Shown here piece by piece: positions 4,945-54,125 of a DNA stretch of 64,000 bases. The stretch is from the NCBI GenBank assembly GCA_012516125.1, contig JAAYXB010000094.1, forward strand, positions 1 to 64,000, written 5' to 3'. The stretch's first letter is position 1. Each line of letters starts with the position of its first letter. The position numbers were made by a program, and so were the translations under genes. The notes under the pieces were generated by a model that saw only the letters and a list, made by a program, of their open reading frames with translations, was not told the origin of the DNA and did no database searches. Origin of the DNA: Bacillota bacterium. Lineage in GTDB: Bacteria; Bacillota; SHA-98; UBA4971.

Positions 4945-6198
4945 GTGGCAAGCACCCAGCCGACTGTGAAGGCGCAAGTCAGGGGGCCCATAAGGCCCGG
5001 AGACACGCTGCCTTTCTCTCAGCTTCTGGTTCTCGGTCTTCAGCACACGTTCACGATGTTCGGCGCGACGGTCCTGGTGCCACTGCTTACAGGGCTTGAC
5101 GTGAGCGTGGCGCTTTTCACGGCTGGTATCGGGACCCTGTGGTTCCATCTTGTGACGAAGCGAAGGGTCCCGATATTCCTTGGTTCCTCGTTTGCCTTCA
5201 TCGCCCCCGTCGCGCTTGTGATCAAGGAGATGGGGATCCCGGAAGCGCAGGGCGGGATCATCGTAGCAGGTTTGCTGTACTGTGTCCTCGCAGTGATCAT
5301 ATACTTCGTAGGGCCGAAGTTTATGGAATCCCTCTTGCCGCCGGTTGTGACCGGGCCCATCATAATGGTCATCGGTCTCAACCTTGCCCCCGTGGCCATC
5401 GGAAGCGCCAGCAAGAACTGGATAATCGCGCTCATTGTGCTTGCGACCGTCGCTTTCGTGAACCTTTATGTGAAAGGGTTCCTGCGGCTCCTTCCGGTCA
5501 TATCGGGGATAGTCGTGGGGTACATCGTCAGCCTGATATGGGGCATAGTGGACACCGCGCCCGTCGCTCAGGCAGCGTGGGTCGGGATGCCTCATTTCAC
5601 ATGGCCCGTGTTTAACGCGGCGGCCATTGGGCTCATAGCTCCGGTGGCGGTAGCCACCATGGTGGAGCACGTGGGAGACGTGCTCGCGGTGGGAGCCACG
5701 GTGGAGCAGGAGTTCGTCAAGGATCCCGGGCTGCACCGGACGCTCATCGGCGACGGCATCGGGACGTCCCTTGCCGGCCTGTTCGGAGGCCCGGCAAACA
5801 CAACCTATTCAGAGAACACTGGAGTGCTCGCCCTCACCCGGGTCTGGAAGCCCGAGGTCATGAGGGTTGCCGCGGTTATGGCAATTCTGCTTGCGTTCAT
5901 CGGTAAGCTTGGCGCGGCGATAAGGACCATACCCGAGCCTGTCATCGGCGGCATCTCCATCGTGCTGTTCGGAATGATCGCGGCCATCGGCGTGAGGACC
6001 GTCGTCGAGAACCAGGTCGACATGAAGCAGCCCAGGAATCTCCTCATCGCCAGCGTGATGCTCGTGGTAGGCATCGGCGGCGCGATGATCAAGATCTGGG
6101 GCAACCTGCAGTTCGGCGGCATCGGCCTTGCTGCCATCATCGGCATCATACTGAATCAACTCTTGCCGAGAGAGGTCGGGAAGGCTCAAGGCAGCTGA
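4945..6198 (+). CDS. Uracil/xanthine permease family (NCS2) transporter
   Basis: 417 aa polytopic membrane protein of the nucleobase-cation symporter-2 family. The N-terminal QHTFTMFGATVLVPLLTG and the later NTTYSENTGVLALTRV segment match the UraA/PbuX-type core including the NAT signature. It should import uracil, xanthine or a related base by cation symport. Start GTG 4945 follows GGGAGGAGAG. It is co-directional with the hydroxylase genes and 68 nt downstream, so probably the uptake arm of the same pathway. Its TGA stop coincides with the left edge of a degenerate intergenic repeat. Confidence 0.93.
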   Translation: MASTQPTVKAQVRGPIRPGDTLPFSQLLVLGLQHTFTMFGATVLVPLLTGLDVSVALFTAGIGTLWFHLVTKRRVPIFLGSSFAFIAPVALVIKEMGIPEAQGGIIVAGLLYCVLAVIIYFVGPKFMESLLPPVVTGPIIMVIGLNLAPVAIGSASKNWIIALIVLATVAFVNLYVKGFLRLLPVISGIVVGYIVSLIWGIVDTAPVAQAAWVGMPHFTWPVFNAAAIGLIAPVAVATMVEHVGDVLAVGATVEQEFVKDPGLHRTLIGDGIGTSLAGLFGGPANTTYSENTGVLALTRVWKPEVMRVAAVMAILLAFIGKLGAAIRTIPEPVIGGISIVLFGMIAAIGVRTVVENQVDMKQPRNLLIASVMLVVGIGGAMIKIWGNLQFGGIGLAAIIGIILNQLLPREVGKAQGS

Positions 6199-6380
6199 GT
6201 GTGAGTTCGCAGGTTTGCCCGGTCTGCCAGCGGGGTCGGGGTCGCCGGTGCTCGCACGACGGGACCCTTGAGATCTGGCAAGCCCGAACGCCGGATTTCA
6301 CGGAGGCGCGCCGCAAGCGCGCTGTCCCCGGTATGCAACACCACGAGCCCCTGGGGAAGTGGCGGTCATCCCCGACCTCG
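6195..6380 (+). repeat. Divergent full-length copy of the intergenic repeat family
   Basis: The segment begins CTGAGTGTGAG, with the uraA-type stop TGA inside it. It keeps weaker versions of family landmarks in the right order: GTCGCCGGTGCTCGCACGA, then GCCGGATTTCACGGAGGCGC, then CTGTCCCCGGTATGCAACACC. Compared with the copies at 7799 and 23773 it is heavily mutated, and its right edge is uncertain. Assignment rests on ordered partial matches. Confidence 0.45.
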
Positions 6381-7798: not shown

Positions 7799-8000
7799 CT
7801 AAGTGAGGGTGCAGAAGTGCTGACGACCTTCGGGAGGGGTTACCGGTGGTTGCACGAGGGGTGTCAGAATCCGGCCGCCGGCCCGATGGGCCGGATCTTG
7901 GCGAAGCGCGCCCCGCTTGGGGCGCCGTCCCCGAGTGCAACACCGGCAACCCGGCAACCGCTGGAAAAGGGACGAGAACTAACGCACCTTACCCTCATAG
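7799..8000 (+). repeat. Full-length (about 200 bp) copy of the intergenic repeat family
   Basis: Left end CTAAGTGAGGGTGCAGAA, right end CTAACGCACCTTACCCTCATAG. Inside, GGTTACCGGTGGTTGCAC pairs with GTGCAACACCGGCAACC. CAGAATCCGGCC pairs with GGCCGGATCTTG around the centre, and GCGCCCCGCTTGGGGCGC is a hairpin. It fills most of the 328-nt gap between atpI and atpB. The remainder, 7721-7798 and 8001-8048, shows nothing recognisable. No coding sequence of its own is credible. Confidence 0.85.
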
Positions 8001-8503: not shown

Positions 8504-8628
8504 CTAAACGAAGGTGCAGAAATGCTTCCGACTTTGGGAGGGGTTGCCGGTGACGCCAGGAGAGAGTGTAACACCGGCAACCCACCAGACATTGGTGCAC
8601 TGGGAGGAACTTGCGAACTCTCACTTGG
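8504..8628 (+). repeat. Short (about 125 bp) copy of the intergenic repeat family
   Basis: Begins CTAAACGAAGGTGCAGAA and ends near CTCTCACTTGG. The inner arms GGTTGCCGGTG and CACCGGCAACC are separated by only about 17 nt, so the long central palindromes of full copies are missing. It lies in the 314-nt divergent gap between atpI and the aminotransferase gene. The rest of the gap shows no clear promoter. Confidence 0.85.
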
Positions 8629-8725
8629 GGTCTGAATCTCATGCGTGAGCATGGAGGGATTTCTCAGGCCGTGGAGAAAGAAGGAGACGGTTAGGACGAA
8701 GCTACTGAGGGGGCGACTTGCTCAC

Positions 8726-10599: not shown

Positions 10600-11316
10600 G
10601 TGATCCGGGCGATACTCTTCGATCTCGACGGCACTTTAGTTCACTACGACTTCGACACATTCGTCAGGGAGTACCTGGTAGCCCTCGGTGCGAAACTGGC
10701 GAACATGGTCGAGCCGGGGCGCCTTGTGAGGCAGGTCATGAAGTCTACCGATGCCATGGTGCGAAACCTGGACCCGCGCAAAACCAACCGGGAGGTGTTC
10801 GCTGAGGATTTCTTTCCTGCCATAGGGATACCCGAGGACGTGCTCATGCCGGTGTTCGACGATTTCTACCGGAGCGATTTCCCACAGATTAAGGATCGAC
10901 TGGGCATACGTGCACATCCTGCCGCCCGGCGGATGATCGAGCGCCTCATCTCCAGGGGTCTTGAGGTGGTCATAGCCACGAACCCCGTATTCCCCCTCAT
11001 CGCCATCGAAGAACGGATGAGGTGGGGAGGTCTGGAGGGGATTCCGTATCGGCTTGTGACGTCGTACGAGACCATGCACTTCTGCAAGCCCAACCGCGAG
11101 TACTATGAGGAAGTCCTTTCGCTCATCGGCCGCAAGCCGGAAGAGTGCTTCATGGTAGGCAACGACGTCGAAGAGGATCTCGTCGCCGGCACGCTCGGAA
11201 TGAAGACGTATCTCGTGGAGGACTTCCTCCTCGACCGTGGCAGGGCGAAGAACCATCCGGACTTCCGGGGGACTTTCGAAGAACTCGTGGACTTCATGGA
11301 ACGCGGCCCGTTCTAA
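10600..11316 (+). CDS. HAD-superfamily hydrolase
   Basis: 238 aa. Catalytic DLDGT with nucleophile D8 and D10 sits at the N terminus. Motif II lies in VIATNP, motif III in FCKPNREYY, and motif IV in MVGNDVEEDLVA. The alpha-helical cap between residues 15 and 100 indicates a phosphoglycolate phosphatase-like (C1 cap) subfamily; the substrate is unknown. Start GTG 10600 follows GAGGTGATAAC. The TAA stop (11314-11316) is part of the left terminus of an intergenic repeat. Confidence 0.88.
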   Translation: MIRAILFDLDGTLVHYDFDTFVREYLVALGAKLANMVEPGRLVRQVMKSTDAMVRNLDPRKTNREVFAEDFFPAIGIPEDVLMPVFDDFYRSDFPQIKDRLGIRAHPAARRMIERLISRGLEVVIATNPVFPLIAIEERMRWGGLEGIPYRLVTSYETMHFCKPNREYYEEVLSLIGRKPEECFMVGNDVEEDLVAGTLGMKTYLVEDFLLDRGRAKNHPDFRGTFEELVDFMERGPF

Positions 11317-11480
11317 GTGTGTGTTCCAACATCGGTGCCGCCTTTCCAGCGGCTCGCGCTGTCGCACTCCTGGGACGGCGCCCCAAGCGGGGCACCTCGA
11401 CGAATATCCTCTTGCCGCAAGATCCTGTCGAACCTTCCCGTGTGCCAGAAGGAATCGCGGGGCCACATTGCGAATGTATA
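11313..11480 (-). repeat. Divergent full-length repeat copy, inverted
   Basis: Begins CTAAGTGTGTG, overlapping the stop of the HAD gene. Family landmarks in inverted order are TTTCCAGCGG, GTCGCACTCCTGGGACGGC, GCCCCAAGCGGGGC, then GAATATCCTCTTGCC with a decayed partner arm GCAAGATCCTGTCGA. The right edge is not well defined. Bases 11481-11564 show nothing else. Confidence 0.6.
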
Positions 11481-18316: not shown

Positions 18317-19606
18317 GTGGCAGCGATAGATCCAGGAATCGTCCTTCTGGGCCTCTTTCTCATCCTTCTGGTGGCCAGGGTGCCCGTAGCGGTGGCACTC
18401 GGGATCGCGGGCATGGCCGTGGTCTACCTCAGTGGGCTCGGCTCCGCAATGTTCGCGCCGGTGTTCTTCGCGAACATCTCGAAATTCTCCCTCCTCGCCA
18501 TCCCGTTTTTCATCCTGGCCGGGGTCATAATGGGAAGGGCCAAGATATCCGACAAGATAATCCGCCTGATCTCACTGATCGTGGGTCCCATCAGGGGCGG
18601 GCTTGCTGTGGTCACGGTCATAACCGCCCTTTTCTGGGGCGCTGTGTCCGGGTCAGGACCTGCGACCGTGGCGGCGCTCGGCACGATCCTTGTCCCCGGG
18701 ATGGTGAAAGAGGGATACGATAAGGGTTTCGCGGCTGCGCTCATGTCGGCTTCCGCGGGGCTTGCGATAATCATCCCGCCGAGCATTGCCTTCATCGTGT
18801 ACGGTGTCATCACCGGAGCGTCCATAGGCAAACTGTTCATCGCAGGGATAGTGCCCGGGATCGTGGTGGGCGTATTCCTGATAGTCGCGGCGTTTCTCAT
18901 CTCGGTCGCCCGCGATTACCGGGGCGGTTCCTTCGGGAAGCTGGCCGAGGTCTGGCGTGCGTTCAAAGAAGCGTTCTGGGGGCTTATCGCGCCCCTCATA
19001 ATCCTGGGCGGGATATACGGTGGCATCTTCACGCCGACGGAGGCAGCGGCGGTCGCAGTCGTGTACGGACTCTTCGTGGGGTTCCTCATATACCGCACGC
19101 TCACCTTGAAAGACCTCTACGAATTGCTCGTCGAGTCTTGTGTGTCCTCTGCCGTGGTCATGCTGGTCGTCTCGCTCGCGGGGATCTTCGGATGGGCCAT
19201 GACGACGCTCGGGGTGGTGGAGAAGGTATCGCAGGCGGCGATTGCCATAAGCTCCAATCAGTATCTCGTGCTCCTCATCATCAACGTCGTTCTCCTTATC
19301 GCCGGGATGCTGCTCGATGCCATCTCCATCTACTATATACTCACGCCGCTCCTCATGCCCATCATGGCGCACTTCGGGTGGGACCCGATCTGGTTCGGTG
19401 TTCTCATGTGTGTGAACCTGGCGGTCGGACAGGTCACGCCGCCGGTCGCTGTGAACCTGTACGTGGGTGCCAACATCGCGGGGATCTCCATGGACGAGAT
19501 CTCGCGGGCAGTGGTGCCGTTCGTGATCGCGGCGATCGTGGCGCTCCTTATTATCACGTACATTCCTGTGCTATCGACGTGGCTTCCGGGCCTTCTGATG
19601 TACTAA
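18317..19606 (+). CDS. dctM: TRAP transporter large membrane subunit (DctM family)
   Basis: 429 aa, about twelve membrane helices, the transport channel of the TRAP system. Family segments are FFILAGVIMGRAKISDKIIRL, WGAVSGSGPATVAALG, IIIPPSIAFIVYGVITGASIGKLFIAGI and FTPTEAAAVAVVYGL. Start GTG 18317. The TAA stop (19604-19606) falls within the left terminus of an intergenic repeat, so the repeat abuts the reading frame exactly. A 93-nt spacer separates it from dctQ. Confidence 0.95.
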   Translation: MAAIDPGIVLLGLFLILLVARVPVAVALGIAGMAVVYLSGLGSAMFAPVFFANISKFSLLAIPFFILAGVIMGRAKISDKIIRLISLIVGPIRGGLAVVTVITALFWGAVSGSGPATVAALGTILVPGMVKEGYDKGFAAALMSASAGLAIIIPPSIAFIVYGVITGASIGKLFIAGIVPGIVVGVFLIVAAFLISVARDYRGGSFGKLAEVWRAFKEAFWGLIAPLIILGGIYGGIFTPTEAAAVAVVYGLFVGFLIYRTLTLKDLYELLVESCVSSAVVMLVVSLAGIFGWAMTTLGVVEKVSQAAIAISSNQYLVLLIINVVLLIAGMLLDAISIYYILTPLLMPIMAHFGWDPIWFGVLMCVNLAVGQVTPPVAVNLYVGANIAGISMDEISRAVVPFVIAAIVALLIITYIPVLSTWLPGLLMY

Positions 19607-19811
19607 GTGCGCACTCAGAATCCACACCACTTTTCCAGGGGGGCAGCTTGCCGGGGCTTGCGCGACGGGGTGTCAGAATTTCGGTATTTGCCTGTGGTCG
19701 GAATTCTGTCAAGACGCCCCGTCTGGGGTGCCGTCCGCGGAGGCGAGCACCGGCAACCGCGAGTACGCGAGGCTTTGGCAACGCGGGAGCGATTTCTGAC
19801 ACTCCACTTAG
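19603..19811 (+). repeat. Full-length divergent repeat copy between dctM and E2
   Basis: Begins CTAAGTGCGCACTCAGAA and ends CCACTTAG at 19811. Inside, GTGTCAGAATTTCGG is inverted as TCGGAATTCTGTC, followed by GACGCCCCGTCTGGGGTGCCG and GCACCGGCAACC. It separates the TRAP genes from the E2 gene and occupies most of that 262-nt gap. Whether transcription continues through it to E2 is unknown. Confidence 0.75.
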
Positions 19812-19868: not shown

Positions 19869-21230
19869 ATGCTGCAGGATATCGTCATGCCGAAACTGGG
19901 CCTCACAATGACCGAGGGGACCCTAGCGAGGTGGATCGTATCAAAGGGCGAGCCTTACAAGAAAGGAGACCCGCTCTTCGAGGCCGTCACCGACAAGATC
20001 ACCTTTACCGTTGAAGCCCAGACGGATGGGAGGATTGCGGAGATCCTCGTAAACGAGGGGGAGACCGTCCCCGTTGGGGCGGGGGTGGCGCGTGCCGAGG
20101 TGGCGGCCGAGGCTGGTGCACCAGAGGAGGCAGGCGTGGGCGAAGGCCCCCGCCAAGAGCCTGAACACGGACAAGAGGAGAATCAGGGGCCGGCACAGCC
20201 CCAGGGGGCGGCAGGGTCGGACAGGGCGTCGGCGTCCGCGATCGGAGGTCCTCACGGCGAAGGAGTGACGCCGCCCGGCGGGCGGCCCGAGGCACCGGGG
20301 GCCGCAGGTGACGTCGTCCGCGCTTCGCCGGCAGCAAAGAAGCTTGCCCGGGAACATAACGTGGACCTCGCGAAGGTCCCAGGAACGGGCCCGGGCGGAC
20401 GCGTGGTGGAGGGGGACGTGCGCGCCTTCCTCGATAGGATGCTCGGGGCGGCGGCGGATATCATCGCCAGGGCCACAGGGGAGCGTGGCGCGGGAGAGCC
20501 TCACGTTGGTTCCCTGGGGACCGCCCCTTCTGGAACGACCGTCCCGTATACAGCTATCGGAAGGACTTCTGCCGAGAGAACCAGCATGAGCTTTCGGACG
20601 GCACCACATTTCTACATATCCATGGACGTGGACGCGACGGCGCTCCTTGCGTTCAGGGAGAGGCTCCTTGAGGATGTTCCCCGCGGCGAAACAGGTGAGA
20701 CCGTCCGGCCCTCCATCAACGACATCCTCGTCAAGGCGGTGGCGAGGGCTCTCGCCGAGCATCGCTACGCCAACGCGTCGGCGGCTGACGATGGCGTCGT
20801 CATCTACCAGGAGATCAATATCGGCGTGGCTGTCGCCACAGACCAGGGCCTCGTGGTGCCCGTCGTCCATGACGCAGACAGGAAGACGCTTCTCGAGATC
20901 GCCCGGGAAACAAAGGAGCTTGCGGGCCGCGCCAGGGAGGGCCGCCTCGAGCCGGAGAATATTGCGGGTGGCACGTTCACCATATCCAACCTCGGCATGT
21001 TCGGCGTGGACGAGCTGTGCGCGATAATCAACCCGCCACAGGCTGCGATCCTCGGGGTCGGCGCCGTCCGGGAGCGGCCCGTTGCGAAGGGAGGCGCCGT
21101 GGTCCCGGGCATGGTGATGAGGCTGACGCTCTCCGCCGACCATCGCGTGCTTGACGGGGCAAGCGCCGCGAAGTTCCTGGGACAGGTGAAGGAGATCGTC
21201 GAGTCGCTTGATCCTGACACTGGCATCTAA
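19869..21230 (+). CDS. acoC: Dihydrolipoyl acyltransferase E2 of the 2-oxoacid/acetoin dehydrogenase
   Basis: 453 aa. One lipoyl domain occupies residues 1-79, with the lipoyl-lysine in EAVTDKITFTVEA near residue 43. A 70-residue Pro/Gly/Glu-rich linker follows. The peripheral subunit-binding domain is at about 155-195 (VRASPAAKKLAREHNVDLAKV). The C-terminal catalytic domain holds ADHRVLDGASAAKF with catalytic His and Asp. ATG 19869 follows AGGAGGATA. It transfers the acyl group from lipoate to CoA. It is separated from E1 by the TRAP genes and a repeat. No E3 gene is in the window. Confidence 0.92.
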   Translation: MLQDIVMPKLGLTMTEGTLARWIVSKGEPYKKGDPLFEAVTDKITFTVEAQTDGRIAEILVNEGETVPVGAGVARAEVAAEAGAPEEAGVGEGPRQEPEHGQEENQGPAQPQGAAGSDRASASAIGGPHGEGVTPPGGRPEAPGAAGDVVRASPAAKKLAREHNVDLAKVPGTGPGGRVVEGDVRAFLDRMLGAAADIIARATGERGAGEPHVGSLGTAPSGTTVPYTAIGRTSAERTSMSFRTAPHFYISMDVDATALLAFRERLLEDVPRGETGETVRPSINDILVKAVARALAEHRYANASAADDGVVIYQEINIGVAVATDQGLVVPVVHDADRKTLLEIARETKELAGRAREGRLEPENIAGGTFTISNLGMFGVDELCAIINPPQAAILGVGAVRERPVAKGGAVVPGMVMRLTLSADHRVLDGASAAKFLGQVKEIVESLDPDTGI

Positions 21231-21293
21231 CTCTCTCTTTGAGTCACCGGCAACCCTCTCCAAAGTGGGAAGCATTTCTCCACCCCCACGTAG
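21228..21293 (-). repeat. Half copy of the intergenic repeat
   Basis: TTTGAGTCACCGGCAACC, then CAAAGTGGGAAGCATTTCTCC and CCCACGTAG, correspond to one terminal half of the family in inverted orientation. The opposite half is missing. It begins at the stop of the E2 gene, whose TAA reads CTAACTC. Confidence 0.7.
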
Positions 21294-22444: not shown

Positions 22445-23886
22445 GTGCTATGAGCGAAGCTGTTGCCCTGGTATCCCTGGGATGCGCAAAAAACCTGGTG
22501 GACTCCGAGGTAATGGCGGGCCTCCTCACTGCGGCGGGCTACCGGATGACGTCGTTCCCGGGGGACGCCGACGTCATTGTCGTGAACACCTGCGCTTTCA
22601 TCGGCGAGGCGCAACAGGAGGCGGTAGACACCATACTTGACCTCGCGAAACACAAGGAAGCGGGGCGGTGCCGCGCGCTAGTGGTTACGGGGTGTCTCGC
22701 CCAGAGGTTCGCGTCCGAGCTCCTCGCGGAGATACCTGAGATCGACGCCGTGGTCGGCACGGGCGACTTTCCCCAGATCGCCGATGTGGTCAGGAGGGCC
22801 CTCTCGGGCGAGCGGGTCAGGCTTGTCGGGACCCCCTGCTACCTATATGACGAAAACGCCCCACGCATCCTCTCAACCCCGCCTTACATGGCCTACGTCA
22901 AGATCGCAGAAGGCTGCAGCAACCGATGTTCGTACTGTGTGATCCCGGACCTTCGTGGGCCCTATCGATCGAGACCCATGGAGTCCATCATCGCCGAGGT
23001 CCGGAAGCTTGCCCGCGGCGGGGCGAAGGAACTCGTCCTGATTGCCCAGGACACCACGAGGTACGGAGAGGACATCTATGGGCGCCCGTCCCTCGCAAGG
23101 CTGCTCCGCGAAATCTGCAAGGTCGACGGCCCGAGGTGGGTGCGGGTCCTTTACATGTACCCGACGAGGGTGAGTGGCGAGCTTATCGAGGTCATGGCCT
23201 CCGAGCCTAAGATCTGCAAGTATGTCGACCTGCCTCTTCAGCACGCCGATGACGACATCCTCCGGGCTATGAACCGCAGGGGGACTTCGGACGACGCGCG
23301 CAACGTCATCGCCAGGTTCCGGCAAGCGATGCCCGGCGTCACCATAAGGAGCACGTTCATCGTGGGGTTTCCGGGGGAAACCGATGAGAAGTTCGGACGG
23401 CTTCTCGACTTTCTGAAGGAGGTCCGCCTCGACAGGGTCGGGGTGTTCGCCTACTCCCCGCAGCCGGGCACGCCGGCGGCGAGGCTGCATGGCCGGGTGC
23501 CCGCACGGGTGAAGGAGAGGCGGCGGCGCGAGGCCATGGAGGTGCAGAAGGCCATCTCCCGCGAGAAGAACGAGGCCAGGGTGGGTAAGGTGTTCGATGT
23601 GCTCATCGAGGGGCGTTCGGAGGAGAGCGATCTCGTCACAGTGGGTCGCTCCCAGGCGGAGGCGCCGGAGATAGACGGTCTCATCTACATCGGCAACGAG
23701 CACCCGGCACCGGGGGAGTTCCGGCGTGTGAGAATAGTTGACGCGGGCGACTACGATCTTGTGGGCGAGACTCTAACCGAGGGTGCGTTAGTTCTCGCCC
23801 CTCTTCCAGTAGTTGCCGGGTTGCCGGTGTTGCACTCGGGGACGGCGCCCCGAGCGGGGCGCCTTGACAAAATCCGGCCCGTCTAG
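22441..23886 (+). CDS. rimO: Ribosomal protein S12 methylthiotransferase RimO with repeat-derived C-terminal tail
   Basis: 481 aa. The N-terminal MTTase domain has cysteines in SLGCAKNLVDSE, VVNTCAF and VTGCLAQ. The radical SAM cluster is CSNRCSYCVIP, and a TRAM domain follows at about residues 375-440. It methylthiolates the S12 aspartate. Homologues normally end near YDLVGE (about residue 443). Here an inserted repeat removes the natural stop and adds about 35 residues (onset TLTEGALVLAPL), ending at 23886 inside the repeat. Start GTG 22441 overlaps the kinase stop; ATG 22450 is possible. Confidence 0.93.
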   Translation: MSAMSEAVALVSLGCAKNLVDSEVMAGLLTAAGYRMTSFPGDADVIVVNTCAFIGEAQQEAVDTILDLAKHKEAGRCRALVVTGCLAQRFASELLAEIPEIDAVVGTGDFPQIADVVRRALSGERVRLVGTPCYLYDENAPRILSTPPYMAYVKIAEGCSNRCSYCVIPDLRGPYRSRPMESIIAEVRKLARGGAKELVLIAQDTTRYGEDIYGRPSLARLLREICKVDGPRWVRVLYMYPTRVSGELIEVMASEPKICKYVDLPLQHADDDILRAMNRRGTSDDARNVIARFRQAMPGVTIRSTFIVGFPGETDEKFGRLLDFLKEVRLDRVGVFAYSPQPGTPAARLHGRVPARVKERRRREAMEVQKAISREKNEARVGKVFDVLIEGRSEESDLVTVGRSQAEAPEIDGLIYIGNEHPAPGEFRRVRIVDAGDYDLVGETLTEGALVLAPLPVVAGLPVLHSGTAPRAGRLDKIRPV

Positions 23887-23969
23887 CCAGTGGCCGGATT
23901 TTGGCACCCCTCGTGCAATCACCGGCAACCCCTCCCAAAAGTCGGGAGCATTTCTGCACCCTCACTTAG
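23773..23969 (-). repeat. Best-preserved full-length repeat copy, inverted, overlapping rimO
   Basis: Ends are CTAACCGAGGGTGCGTTAG at left and TTCTGCACCCTCACTTAG at right. Inner arms GGTTGCCGGTGTTGCAC and GTGCAATCACCGGCAACC flank two further palindromes. CAAAATCCGGCC pairs with GGCCGGATTTTG (12 bp), and GGCGCCCCGAGCGGGGCGCC is self-complementary. The left 114 nt are translated as the tail of RimO. The copy is useful as the reference for the family. Confidence 0.9.
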
Positions 23970-24366: not shown

Positions 24367-25626
24367 ATGAGCGGGGAGACGAGGCGGAAGAGCGCCTACG
24401 AGATCGCCCTACAGCAGTATGACGCCGTCGCGGAAAAACTGGATATCGACCCAGGAATACGTGAACTATTACGCCATCCCAAGACAGCTCTTGAGGTGGC
24501 GTTTCCTGTCAAGATGGACGACGGCACGGTGAAGGTCATAACGGGCTACCGGGTCATCCACAACACCGCGAGGGGCCCGGGCAAAGGCGGCATCAGGTAC
24601 CATCCTGACGTCACTTTCGACGAGGTCAAGGCGCTTGCCATGTGGATGACCTGGAAGTGCGCGGTGGTGGGCATTCCGTTCGGCGGCGCAAAGGGCGGCG
24701 TGGTGTGCAACCCCAAAGAGATGTCCCAGGGCGAGATCGAGAGGCTCACCAGGCGCTTTACGACCGAGATCAGCAGCGTCATAGGGCCGTATACAGATAT
24801 CCCGGCGCCGGACGTCTACACTAACGCCCAGGTCATGGCGTGGATCATGGACACCTACAGCATCCACAAGGGCGAGTTCGTGCCTGGCGTGGTGACCGGC
24901 AAGCCCATCCAGCTTGGCGGGTCGCTCGGGCGCAATGAAGCCACTGCAAGGGGCTGCGTGTTCACCATAAGGCAGGCTGCAAAGCATCTCGGAATCCCCA
25001 TGGACCGTCTGCGCGTTGCCATCCAGGGCTACGGCAACGCGGGTTCCATAGCCGCATCTCTCCTCCATGCAGACGGCTGCAAGATCATTGCCGTATCCGA
25101 CTCCAAGGGCGGTGCGTACTGCGCCAAAGGTCTTGACCCGGCGAAGGTTCTCGCTCACAAGAAGCTCACGGGTTCCGTGGTGGAGACCGAGGGAGCGGAG
25201 TTCATCTCCAACGCGGACCTGCTTGAGCTCGACTGCGACGTGCTTGTGCCGGCCGCGCTCGAGAACCAGATAACGGCCGACAATGCGCCGCGTGTGCGGG
25301 CCAGGGTTGTGGCCGAGGCGGCGAACGGGCCGACGACTCCCGAGGCGGATGACATCCTTTTCGATAAGGGCGTCATGGTCATCCCCGACATCCTGGCGAA
25401 CGCAGGCGGCGTGACCGTTTCCTACTTCGAGTGGGTGCAGAACCTCATGGTCTACTATTGGACGGAAGAGGAAGTCAACAGAAAGCTGGAACAGATTATG
25501 AATCACAGCTTCGAAGCGGTGCTCGAAATGGCCAAGAAGAAGAAGGTCCACATGAGGAACGCCGCCTATATGCTTGCGATCTCAAGGGTGGCGGAGGCCG
25601 TGAAGCTGAGAGGCATCTATCCGTGA
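24367..25626 (+). CDS. gdhA: Glutamate dehydrogenase (Glu/Leu/Phe/Val family)
   Basis: 419 aa, the standard hexameric size. The catalytic lysine lies in PFGGAKGGV and substrate residues in [13 protein letters not shown]. The Rossmann NAD(P) motif is [11 protein letters not shown] near residue 220, and [12 protein letters not shown] is near the end. It oxidatively deaminates glutamate to 2-oxoglutarate. ATG 24367 follows GAGAGGAGAGGAAG; upstream in-frame codons precede the predicted sigma-54 start site. The catabolic direction is suggested by the promoter type. A repeat and a strong terminator follow. Confidence 0.95.
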
Positions 25627-25642: not shown

Positions 25643-25766
25643 GTAAGTGAGAGTGCAGAAGTGCTCCCGGCTCTTGGGATGGGTTGCCGGTGTTGCACTG
25701 TGTCTTTGAGTCACCGGCAACCCACAGGTGTTGGCAAGCCATGGGGAACTTACGAACCCTCACCAG
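25643..25766 (+). repeat. Short repeat copy after gdhA
   Basis: Begins GTAAGTGAGAGTGCAGAAG and ends near CCCTCACCAG. Arms GGTTGCCGGTG and CACCGGCAACC flank a small loop containing GTCTTTGAG, shared with the half copy at 21228. It lies 16 nt beyond the gdhA stop. Confidence 0.85.
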
Positions 25767-37338: not shown

Positions 37339-37403
37339 CCCTTCCTGTTCTCCTGAACGTGATGAGCTTTCCTGCGTTTCGACGCCACCTGTTCGATCTC
37401 CTG

Positions 37404-37529
37404 CTTAGTGAGGGTGCAGAAATGCTTCCGACTCTTGGGATGGGTTCCCGGAGCCTCAAAGAAAGAGTGCAGCGCCGGCTACCCGGCGACTACCGGAAGG
37501 CGGACAAGGACTAACGCCCCCTCCTCTTG
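37404..37529 (+). repeat. Short repeat copy before corA
   Basis: Begins CTTAGTGAGGGTGCAGAA and ends around GACTAACGCCCCCTCCTC. The inner arms are degraded (GGTTCCCGG, GCCGGCTACC). It lies in the 324-nt divergent gap between the phosphatase and corA. The remaining 37530-37662 has a ribosome site but no promoter I can assign. Confidence 0.8.
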
Positions 37530-39807: not shown

Positions 39808-40641
39808 ATGAGCTTCCTCGCACGGATCGAACGGGCAATCGAGGATATCGTTGAGGGCATCTTCCGCAAGGCGCGCGAGGCGACCCATCCTGTCGAGATA
39901 GGTCGGTACCTCCTGCGGGAGATGGAGGACGAGAAGAGGATCTCCGTGTCCCGTACGTACGTCCCCAATCGTTACAGGGTGAAGCTCCACGCGCGGGATG
40001 TGGAGTACCTCGGGCCGCTCGCCCGCACCGTGTCGCGCGAGCTTGCTAGCCATGTGGTTGCGCGTGCCCGCAGGCAGGGCTATTCCTTCGTCGGTCGGGT
40101 CGATGTGGAGTTCGTCGCCGACGAAGACGCAAGGCCGGGAGACATCAAGGTCGATGGGTTTTTCGTCGAGGATGAGGAGGGGGAGGAGCCGGATGACGCA
40201 GGCTCCACCCGCCGGTCTTGCGCGGTCGGGGAAGGGCACGGCTACGAGCTCCCTGAAGCCGGGGCGCCGGCGGAAAGCTCTCCGCAGGAGGGCTCGCGGA
40301 CACTCATCTCCGATCGCGGCTCTGCCGGTCTTCCTGACCGAGGCCGGCCCAGGCAACCGTACCTTGTGCTCCGGTGCGGCGCAGGCCGGGAACGATTGTT
40401 CCCGCTCGGGGACGGGAAGACAATCGTGGGTCGGTCCAGTTCGTGCGATATCGTCATCGAGGATGCTGGGGTGTCCCGACGCCATGCCGAGATCGGGCGG
40501 GAGGCGGGGCGGTTCTACGTCGCTGACCTCGGGAGCACCAACGGCACGTACGTCAACGGAAGGAGGGTGTCGCGACAGCTCCTTGCCGACGGGGATCTCG
40601 TGAGCTTCGGCAAGGTCGCGGCCCGCTTCAAGGAGGCGTGA
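39808..40641 (+). CDS. fhaA: DUF3662/FHA domain protein (FhaA-like)
   Basis: 277 aa. The N-terminal DUF3662 domain (about residues 1-118) starts MSFLARIERAIEDIVEGIF and includes YVPNRYRVKLHARDVEYLG. A low-complexity linker follows. The C-terminal FHA domain (about 195-275) has the phosphothreonine-binding pattern VGRSSSCDIVIEDAGVSRRH and LGSTNGTYVNG. FhaA-type proteins are recruited by PknB-family kinases to regulate peptidoglycan synthesis. Confidence 0.93.
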   Translation: MSFLARIERAIEDIVEGIFRKAREATHPVEIGRYLLREMEDEKRISVSRTYVPNRYRVKLHARDVEYLGPLARTVSRELASHVVARARRQGYSFVGRVDVEFVADEDARPGDIKVDGFFVEDEEGEEPDDAGSTRRSCAVGEGHGYELPEAGAPAESSPQEGSRTLISDRGSAGLPDRGRPRQPYLVLRCGAGRERLFPLGDGKTIVGRSSSCDIVIEDAGVSRRHAEIGREAGRFYVADLGSTNGTYVNGRRVSRQLLADGDLVSFGKVAARFKEA

Positions 40642-53439: not shown

Positions 53440-54003
53440 TTGAGGTCCGTTCGATGTTTCATCGCCGTTTTTCTGGACCCGGCCCTTCGCCCGCAGGTGG
53501 TAGCCCTTCAGAGGCACCTTGCCCAGAGCGGAGCGGATGTCAAGTGGGTCGAGCCCGAGAACCTTCACTTCACTCTCAAGTTCCTTGGTGACGTCGAGGA
53601 ATCGAGGCTGGAGGCCTTGACCAGGAGGCTCCAGGCTTGCGTGGGAGGTGTGGACGCGTTCGAGCTGGGTCTGGGGGCTGCCGGAGCCTTCCCGCGGATC
53701 CAGGACCCGCGGGTGATATGGATCGGGGTGAGCGTCGGTAGACAGCCCTTCTTGACGCTCGCCTCCGTAGTGGAGGAGACGATGAAGGCAGAGGGCTTCA
53801 GGGGTGAAGGCAAAGGCATCTCGCCCCACCTCACTATAGGCCGGGTGAGGTCGGGCCGCAACCTGCACGCGCTCGCGGACCGGCTTTCGTCCAGTGCGCC
53901 CCTGGAGGGCACGATGAGGGTTGACACGGTCCAGCTGGTAGCGAGCGAGCTTGCGAGCCGCGGGCCGATGTACAGCCCGGTTGCGATCGTTTCGCTTTCC
54001 TAA
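53440..54003 (+). CDS. thpR: RNA 2',3'-cyclic phosphodiesterase ThpR
   Basis: 187 aa from TTG 53440, preceded by GGGAGGTTTC. The 2H phosphoesterase motifs are HFTLKFLG (about residue 43) and HLTIGRVR (about 132). It hydrolyses 2',3'-cyclic phosphate ends; it was formerly called LigT. Location between cinA and recA is typical. The TAA stop (54001-54003) lies inside the left terminus of an intergenic repeat. Confidence 0.92.
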   Translation: MRSVRCFIAVFLDPALRPQVVALQRHLAQSGADVKWVEPENLHFTLKFLGDVEESRLEALTRRLQACVGGVDAFELGLGAAGAFPRIQDPRVIWIGVSVGRQPFLTLASVVEETMKAEGFRGEGKGISPHLTIGRVRSGRNLHALADRLSSSAPLEGTMRVDTVQLVASELASRGPMYSPVAIVSLS

Positions 54004-54125
54004 GTGTGGGTGTAGAAATGCTCCCGACTTTCGGGAGGGGTTGCTGGTGACTCAAGGAGAGAACGCAACACCGGCAACCAGGCAACTACTGGCAAAGGGA
54101 CAAGAACCAACGCTCTCTCACTTAG
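54000..54125 (+). repeat. Short repeat copy between thpR and recA
   Basis: Begins CTAAGTGTGGGTGTAGAA and ends CTCTCTCACTTAG. Contains the hairpin CTCCCGACTTTCGGGAG and arms GGTTGCTGGTG/CACCGGCAACC around a 20-nt loop. It is the clearest short copy: both termini are intact and inverted to each other. Confidence 0.9.

Follow-up and report, generated by a model that had tools for sequence, protein, structure and literature searches.

MITE-like repeats with an apparent CTAG preference may turn TAG stop codons into TAA in an uncultured genus of Bacillota

The closest described counterparts of the repeats analyzed here belong to the IS630 group of insertion sequences or end genes in a similar way. 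Two papers (PMC2170065, PMC6811581) cite Tenzen and Ohtsubo 1991 for the preference of IS630 for the TA within CTAG, and TA duplication has been published for ISY100, an IS630 relative. In Streptococcus pneumoniae, RUP occurs in about 100 copies, inserts at TA, and has been proposed to be mobilized in trans by IS630-Spn1 (PMC2229807). BOX, another repeat of this species, encodes the stop codon of 36 annotated genes, without strong evidence that proteins are truncated (PMC3049150). BOX is already a known case of a bacterial repeat supplying the stop of a gene.

The window is a 64-kb stretch of contig C84 from a 3.24 Mb assembly in 98 contigs (G000), which we compared with five relatives of the same genus (G001–G005), giving a set of six genomes in which the sister genomes are metagenome-assembled Bacillota. 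In addition, we used a sample of 766 kb composed of stretches of five large contigs of G000, in which genes were called with a simple, home-made codon-usage scorer. The repeats are non-autonomous and MITE-like, have lengths of 126, ~190, or ~209 bp, begin with CTAAGTG and end with CACTTAG, possess terminal inverted repeats of 14 bp, and have no obvious coding content. Type A is 126 bp long with the ends CTAAGTGAGGGTGC...GCACCCTCACTTAG, long type A carries a central insert, and type B is the longest, the end sequences being common to all three. REP elements, which are associated with the RAYT (TnpA_REP) transposase, consist of a short single palindrome with GTAG, an anatomy that we take to be unlike that of the elements described here. 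Profile searches of the sample gave 80 matches, fragments included, from which we estimate a genome-wide copy number of roughly 340. Thus, the repeats are short, noncoding, multicopy, and bounded by terminal inverted repeats, as bacterial MITEs are, and their mobility is evident from precise filled and empty orthologous sites in both directions between G000 and the sister species G004. They are new families of a known kind, and with high confidence we regard them as non-autonomous MITEs, probably mobilized in trans by an IS630/Tc1-type transposase, with CTAG as target and with conversion of TAG to TAA where the target is a C-TAG stop.

Two further observations concern the repertoire of repeats. 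At the end of one contig (G000:C64:40618-41046; L036/L037) two type B copies lie inverted and nearly back to back with a short palindrome between them, which is possibly an assembly artifact. A further repeat type starts with CTAAGTA followed by (T/G)(G/A)TCGCCA and GCGCTACTTTTC; it was seen in G002:C18 (L276) and at the HAD stop of G001:C64, and in these relatives it sits at the same kind of stop.

The elements in the window are listed in table 1. The original prediction had named four genes, encoding a permease, a HAD protein, dctM, and thpR, whose stop codons coincide with a repeat terminus, and all four stops were found where it had placed them, each overlapping the terminus. The dctM, thpR, and HAD genes are sound examples. 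The permease gene is a degraded and weakly supported one because its element is strongly decayed and has the terminus CTGAGTG; its TGA presumably is an earlier TAA that has mutated. The insertion at thpR is also present in G004, and CTAAGT at the HAD stop is also found in G004 and G001. Support for dctM comes from unoccupied relatives, and that for thpR and HAD from element anatomy.

Table 1. Repeat elements and the dctM stop codon in the 64-kb window
Feature	Position	Strand	Remarks
Type B, strongly decayed	6195..6380	+	39 bits, E 1.5e-10; terminus CTGAGTG holds permease stop TGA 6196-6198
Long type A, ~190 bp	7799..7988	+	Central insert; intergenic
Type A, decayed ends	8504..8629	+	CTAAACG...CACTTGGG; intergenic
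Type B, decayed	11313..11409	+	nhmmer 35 bits; terminal TAA 11314-11316 is the HAD stop (gene 10600-11316)
Type B, ~209 bp, MITE-like	19603..19811	+	CTAAGTGCGC...CTCCACTTAG; first TAA is the dctM stop; well preserved
dctM stop TAA	19604..19606	+	Gene 18317-19606; formed at element junction
Type A, truncated	21222..21293	-	At stop TAA 21228-21230 of gene 19869-21230
Long type A	23773..23969	-	Near 3' end of gene 22450-23886, CTA frame
Type A, decayed	25643..25763	+	Intergenic, 3' of gene 24367-25626; absent from G004
Type A, decayed	37403..37523	+	CTTAGTG end; intergenic
Type A, 126 bp	54000..54125	+	CTAAGTGTGGGTG...CTCTCACTTAG; first TAA is the thpR stop 54001-54003; well preserved

The coincidence of stops and termini extends to the 766-kb sample. 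Among genes running into an element, the stop begins at offset +1 (the terminal C being 0) in 16 cases, and every other offset from -200 to +130 is represented at most twice, so that the predicted excess at zero distance was borne out. Because CTAAGTG contains TAA, some genes are bound to end there by chance, and in the window this heptamer is only mildly over-represented (7 occurrences vs. 2.7 expected). However, chance does not account for a peak of this sharpness, nor for the bases that follow gene stops irrespective of any repeat annotation: GTG follows 17 of 35 CTAA stops but only 1 of the 73 stops that read ATAA, GTAA, or TTAA. We consider the role of chance here to be practically nil.

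Comparison of filled and empty sites identifies the target. G004 is colinear with G000 at ~94% identity, and there are several elements that only one of the two species carries. For example, the empty site gatgCTAGtag in G004 corresponds to gatgCTAAGTGG...CCACTTAGtag in G000 (C79:35914), and the G004 sequences gcagCTAGagg and caggCTAGgac correspond to filled sites at G000 C79:121814 and C8:146730, respectively. In the opposite direction, G000 has ctcCTAGgcc and gggCTAGcag where G004 carries elements (C1:194423 and C84:30567, respectively). These five sites, counted with both flanks aligned, read CTAG, which provides the reconstruction of the target from insertion-free orthologs that had been suggested. 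Two further empty sites read TTAG and CCAG, each one substitution from CTAG, and two in G000 read CTGA (C79 near 40043-40057, and a site in C8; opposite G004 C1:148096 and C1:341744), which could be substitutions or excision footprints. At the element ends themselves, TAAGT[G/A] is preceded by C in 41 of 45 cases, and positions further out are unbiased.

Given an empty CTAG, the filled site is to be read as C-TA-AGTG...CACT-TA-G. This arrangement matches a duplication of TA; however, a blunt CT|AG insertion of AAGTG...CACTT would yield identical letters, so that the two routes are indistinguishable from sequence. The target could also bring to mind the IS5-type group, which duplicates four bases (CTAG or YTAR), as an IS5-like MITE of Pseudomonas syringae has CTAG/YTAA targets with a 4-nt duplication (PMC3189936). 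In the filled sites examined here, though, the left end reads CTAA and the right end TTAG rather than two copies of CTAG, making assignment to IS5 instead of IS630 highly improbable.

The same target can be followed at the ends of orthologous genes, where relatives without the repeat mostly carry TAG. The gene at C79:12128-14518 ends in C-TAG in G001, G003, and G005 and in C-TAA plus element in G000; in G002 it ends in C-TAA followed by GTATGTCGCC, which is element-like and resembles a further repeat type. The dctM gene ends in C-TAG without an element in G003, in GTAG in G001, and in C-TAA with no clear element in G002, and its ancestral stop was probably TAG. In G004 the dctM stop is occupied by a type A element (CTGAGTGAG) unlike the type B element of G000, which suggests two separate hits in which one CTAG was reused. 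The gene 19869-21230 has C-TAG and no element in G001, the gene at G000 C79:121814 has TAG in G004, and the gene at C92:90542-91444 ends in TTAG in G001 and G003. Because CTAG contains TAG, insertion keeps the TA and replaces the G with the first A of the element, turning TAG into TAA and leaving the protein unchanged. The proposal that the terminus can act as a harmless stop came close to the truth, except that the stop is not wholly derived from the element: its T and A belong to the target, and the insertion alters nothing but the third base, from G to A.

Insertion aimed at stop codons or gene ends had also been proposed, and transposition machinery that recognizes stops, gene ends, or terminators as such would produce abutments of this kind: in 15 of the 50 well-defined elements (30%) a terminus coincides with the stop of a gene, and the dctM stop carries different element types in two sister species. 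The relevant background is the distribution of CTAG itself. Outside elements the sample contains 354 CTAGs, with 211 located within genes, 109 between genes, and 34 forming TAG stops, and among the remaining non-interior CTAGs the share on stops is 34/143 (24%), which does not differ from that of the elements (Fisher p=0.45). Moreover, elements never adjoin ATAA or TTAA stops in the sample and adjoin GTAA stops in only 1 of 50 cases; most are intergenic, and one in the window (23773-23969) lies in a coding frame. Targeting of stops is thus not needed when CTAG is targeted wherever present, and we consider recognition of stops as such very unlikely.

Under the mechanism that we propose instead, the MITEs, whose target is CTAG, would be mobilized in trans by an IS630/Tc1-type transposase, and TA would be duplicated through staggered cut-and-paste, the staggered cut and the IS630-like enzyme both being inferred. 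The target CTAG may fall in any of three reading frames. If TAG of CTAG is the stop of a gene, only its third base would change and the protein would stay as it was; in the CT-AGN frame the gene would end one codon inside the element, at AAG-TGA; and in the CTA frame it would read on into the element. Elements are nearly absent from within genes, where insertions were presumably purged by selection, so that survivors lie either in intergenic DNA or precisely on a C-TAG stop, and the sharp peak at zero distance can thus be ascribed to target sequence and selection together, with no recognition of stops or gene ends required. The other two frames are also represented. A stop at +5, as expected for CT-AAG-TGA, occurs in three cases in the full match list, two of which are TGA and one TAG in a decayed end. 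The single window example of the CTA frame is gene 22450-23886, the last codons of which lie inside the element so that its C-terminus is replaced by element-encoded residues; the element is absent from G004, where the site reads TTAG, and the gene ends differently in the relatives.

Retention of copies at stops might alternatively reflect function as a structured RNA, such as a terminator or a 3'-end stabilizer. Although a consensus-like type A copy folds strongly (z about -8), none of the 28 consensus pairs shows a compensatory change among 22 type A copies, which gives no sign of selection on the RNA. Elements have the same orientation as the gene in 11 cases and the opposite one in 4, a bias that is not significant at such numbers. 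In addition, many copies are decayed, no T-tract was seen, and Rfam has no match within the window. An RNA function as the reason for these copies is therefore very unlikely.

The preference for CTAG, as seen in empty sites, end bases, and ortholog stops, agrees with IS630, and target and anatomy together match IS630/Tc1-type transposition as far as sequence can indicate. Searches with PF13358 in the six genomes of the genus, and with NF033545 in five of them (G000–G004), gave fragments, which lack matching ends, or weak partial matches but no intact transposase of the IS630 family carrying these ends. Across the stretches analyzed, inward-facing pairs of ends 350–3500 bp apart delimit a few spans, and no pair of terminal inverted repeats was recognized around a transposase. 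With no partner found in the genus, the autonomous element is probably extinct or unassembled. Separately, an IS630-like transposase fragment lies in 1260 bp that are 100% identical between G000:C16 (L031:941-2200, reaching the contig end) and G002:C51 (L177); these genomes are otherwise ~80% identical, and the segment reflects either recent transfer or cross-contamination of assemblies.

The filled and empty sites demonstrate that a four-base target preference alone can mimic the targeting of stop codons. With 16 C-TAA stops at elements and 34 remaining C-TAG stops in the sample, insertion may have converted about one-third of the C-TAG stops originally present. Comparisons of stop-codon usage should mask such repeats. 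One could further view C-TAG stops as a safe harbor: CTAG is rare within genes and comparatively common as a C-TAG stop, so that a preference for it would let a MITE family spread harmlessly to about one-third of these stops, shifting them from TAG, which RF1 alone reads, to TAA, which both RF1 and RF2 read. We offer this last idea tentatively and regard it as rather doubtful. The repeats can also be used to trace the history of insertions within this uncultured genus of Bacillota.

In the literature searched, there is no earlier description of MITEs that combine CTAG with stop codons. The stop-encoding BOX repeats differ from the present elements in sequence and origin, and the part of the source available describes no conversion of TAG to TAA at a defined target (PMC3049150). 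The Correia/NEMIS elements of Neisseria are likewise MITEs with TA at their ends, some copies of which are fused to reading frames (PMC2229807), but they differ from the elements described here in sequence and host. RUP of S. pneumoniae, an IS630-Spn1 MITE of 107 bp, is similarly short and non-autonomous with inverted ends (PMC2229807); its sites contain TA and IS630-Spn1 is resident, whereas here the site is CTAG and the partner was not found. Finally, IS630 of Shigella and an IS630-associated composite transposon are alike in having CTAG as the target with the central TA as the insertion point (Tenzen and Ohtsubo 1991, cited in PMC2170065 and PMC6811581). Unlike the present elements, IS630 encodes a transposase, and it is by the target site that we liken the two.
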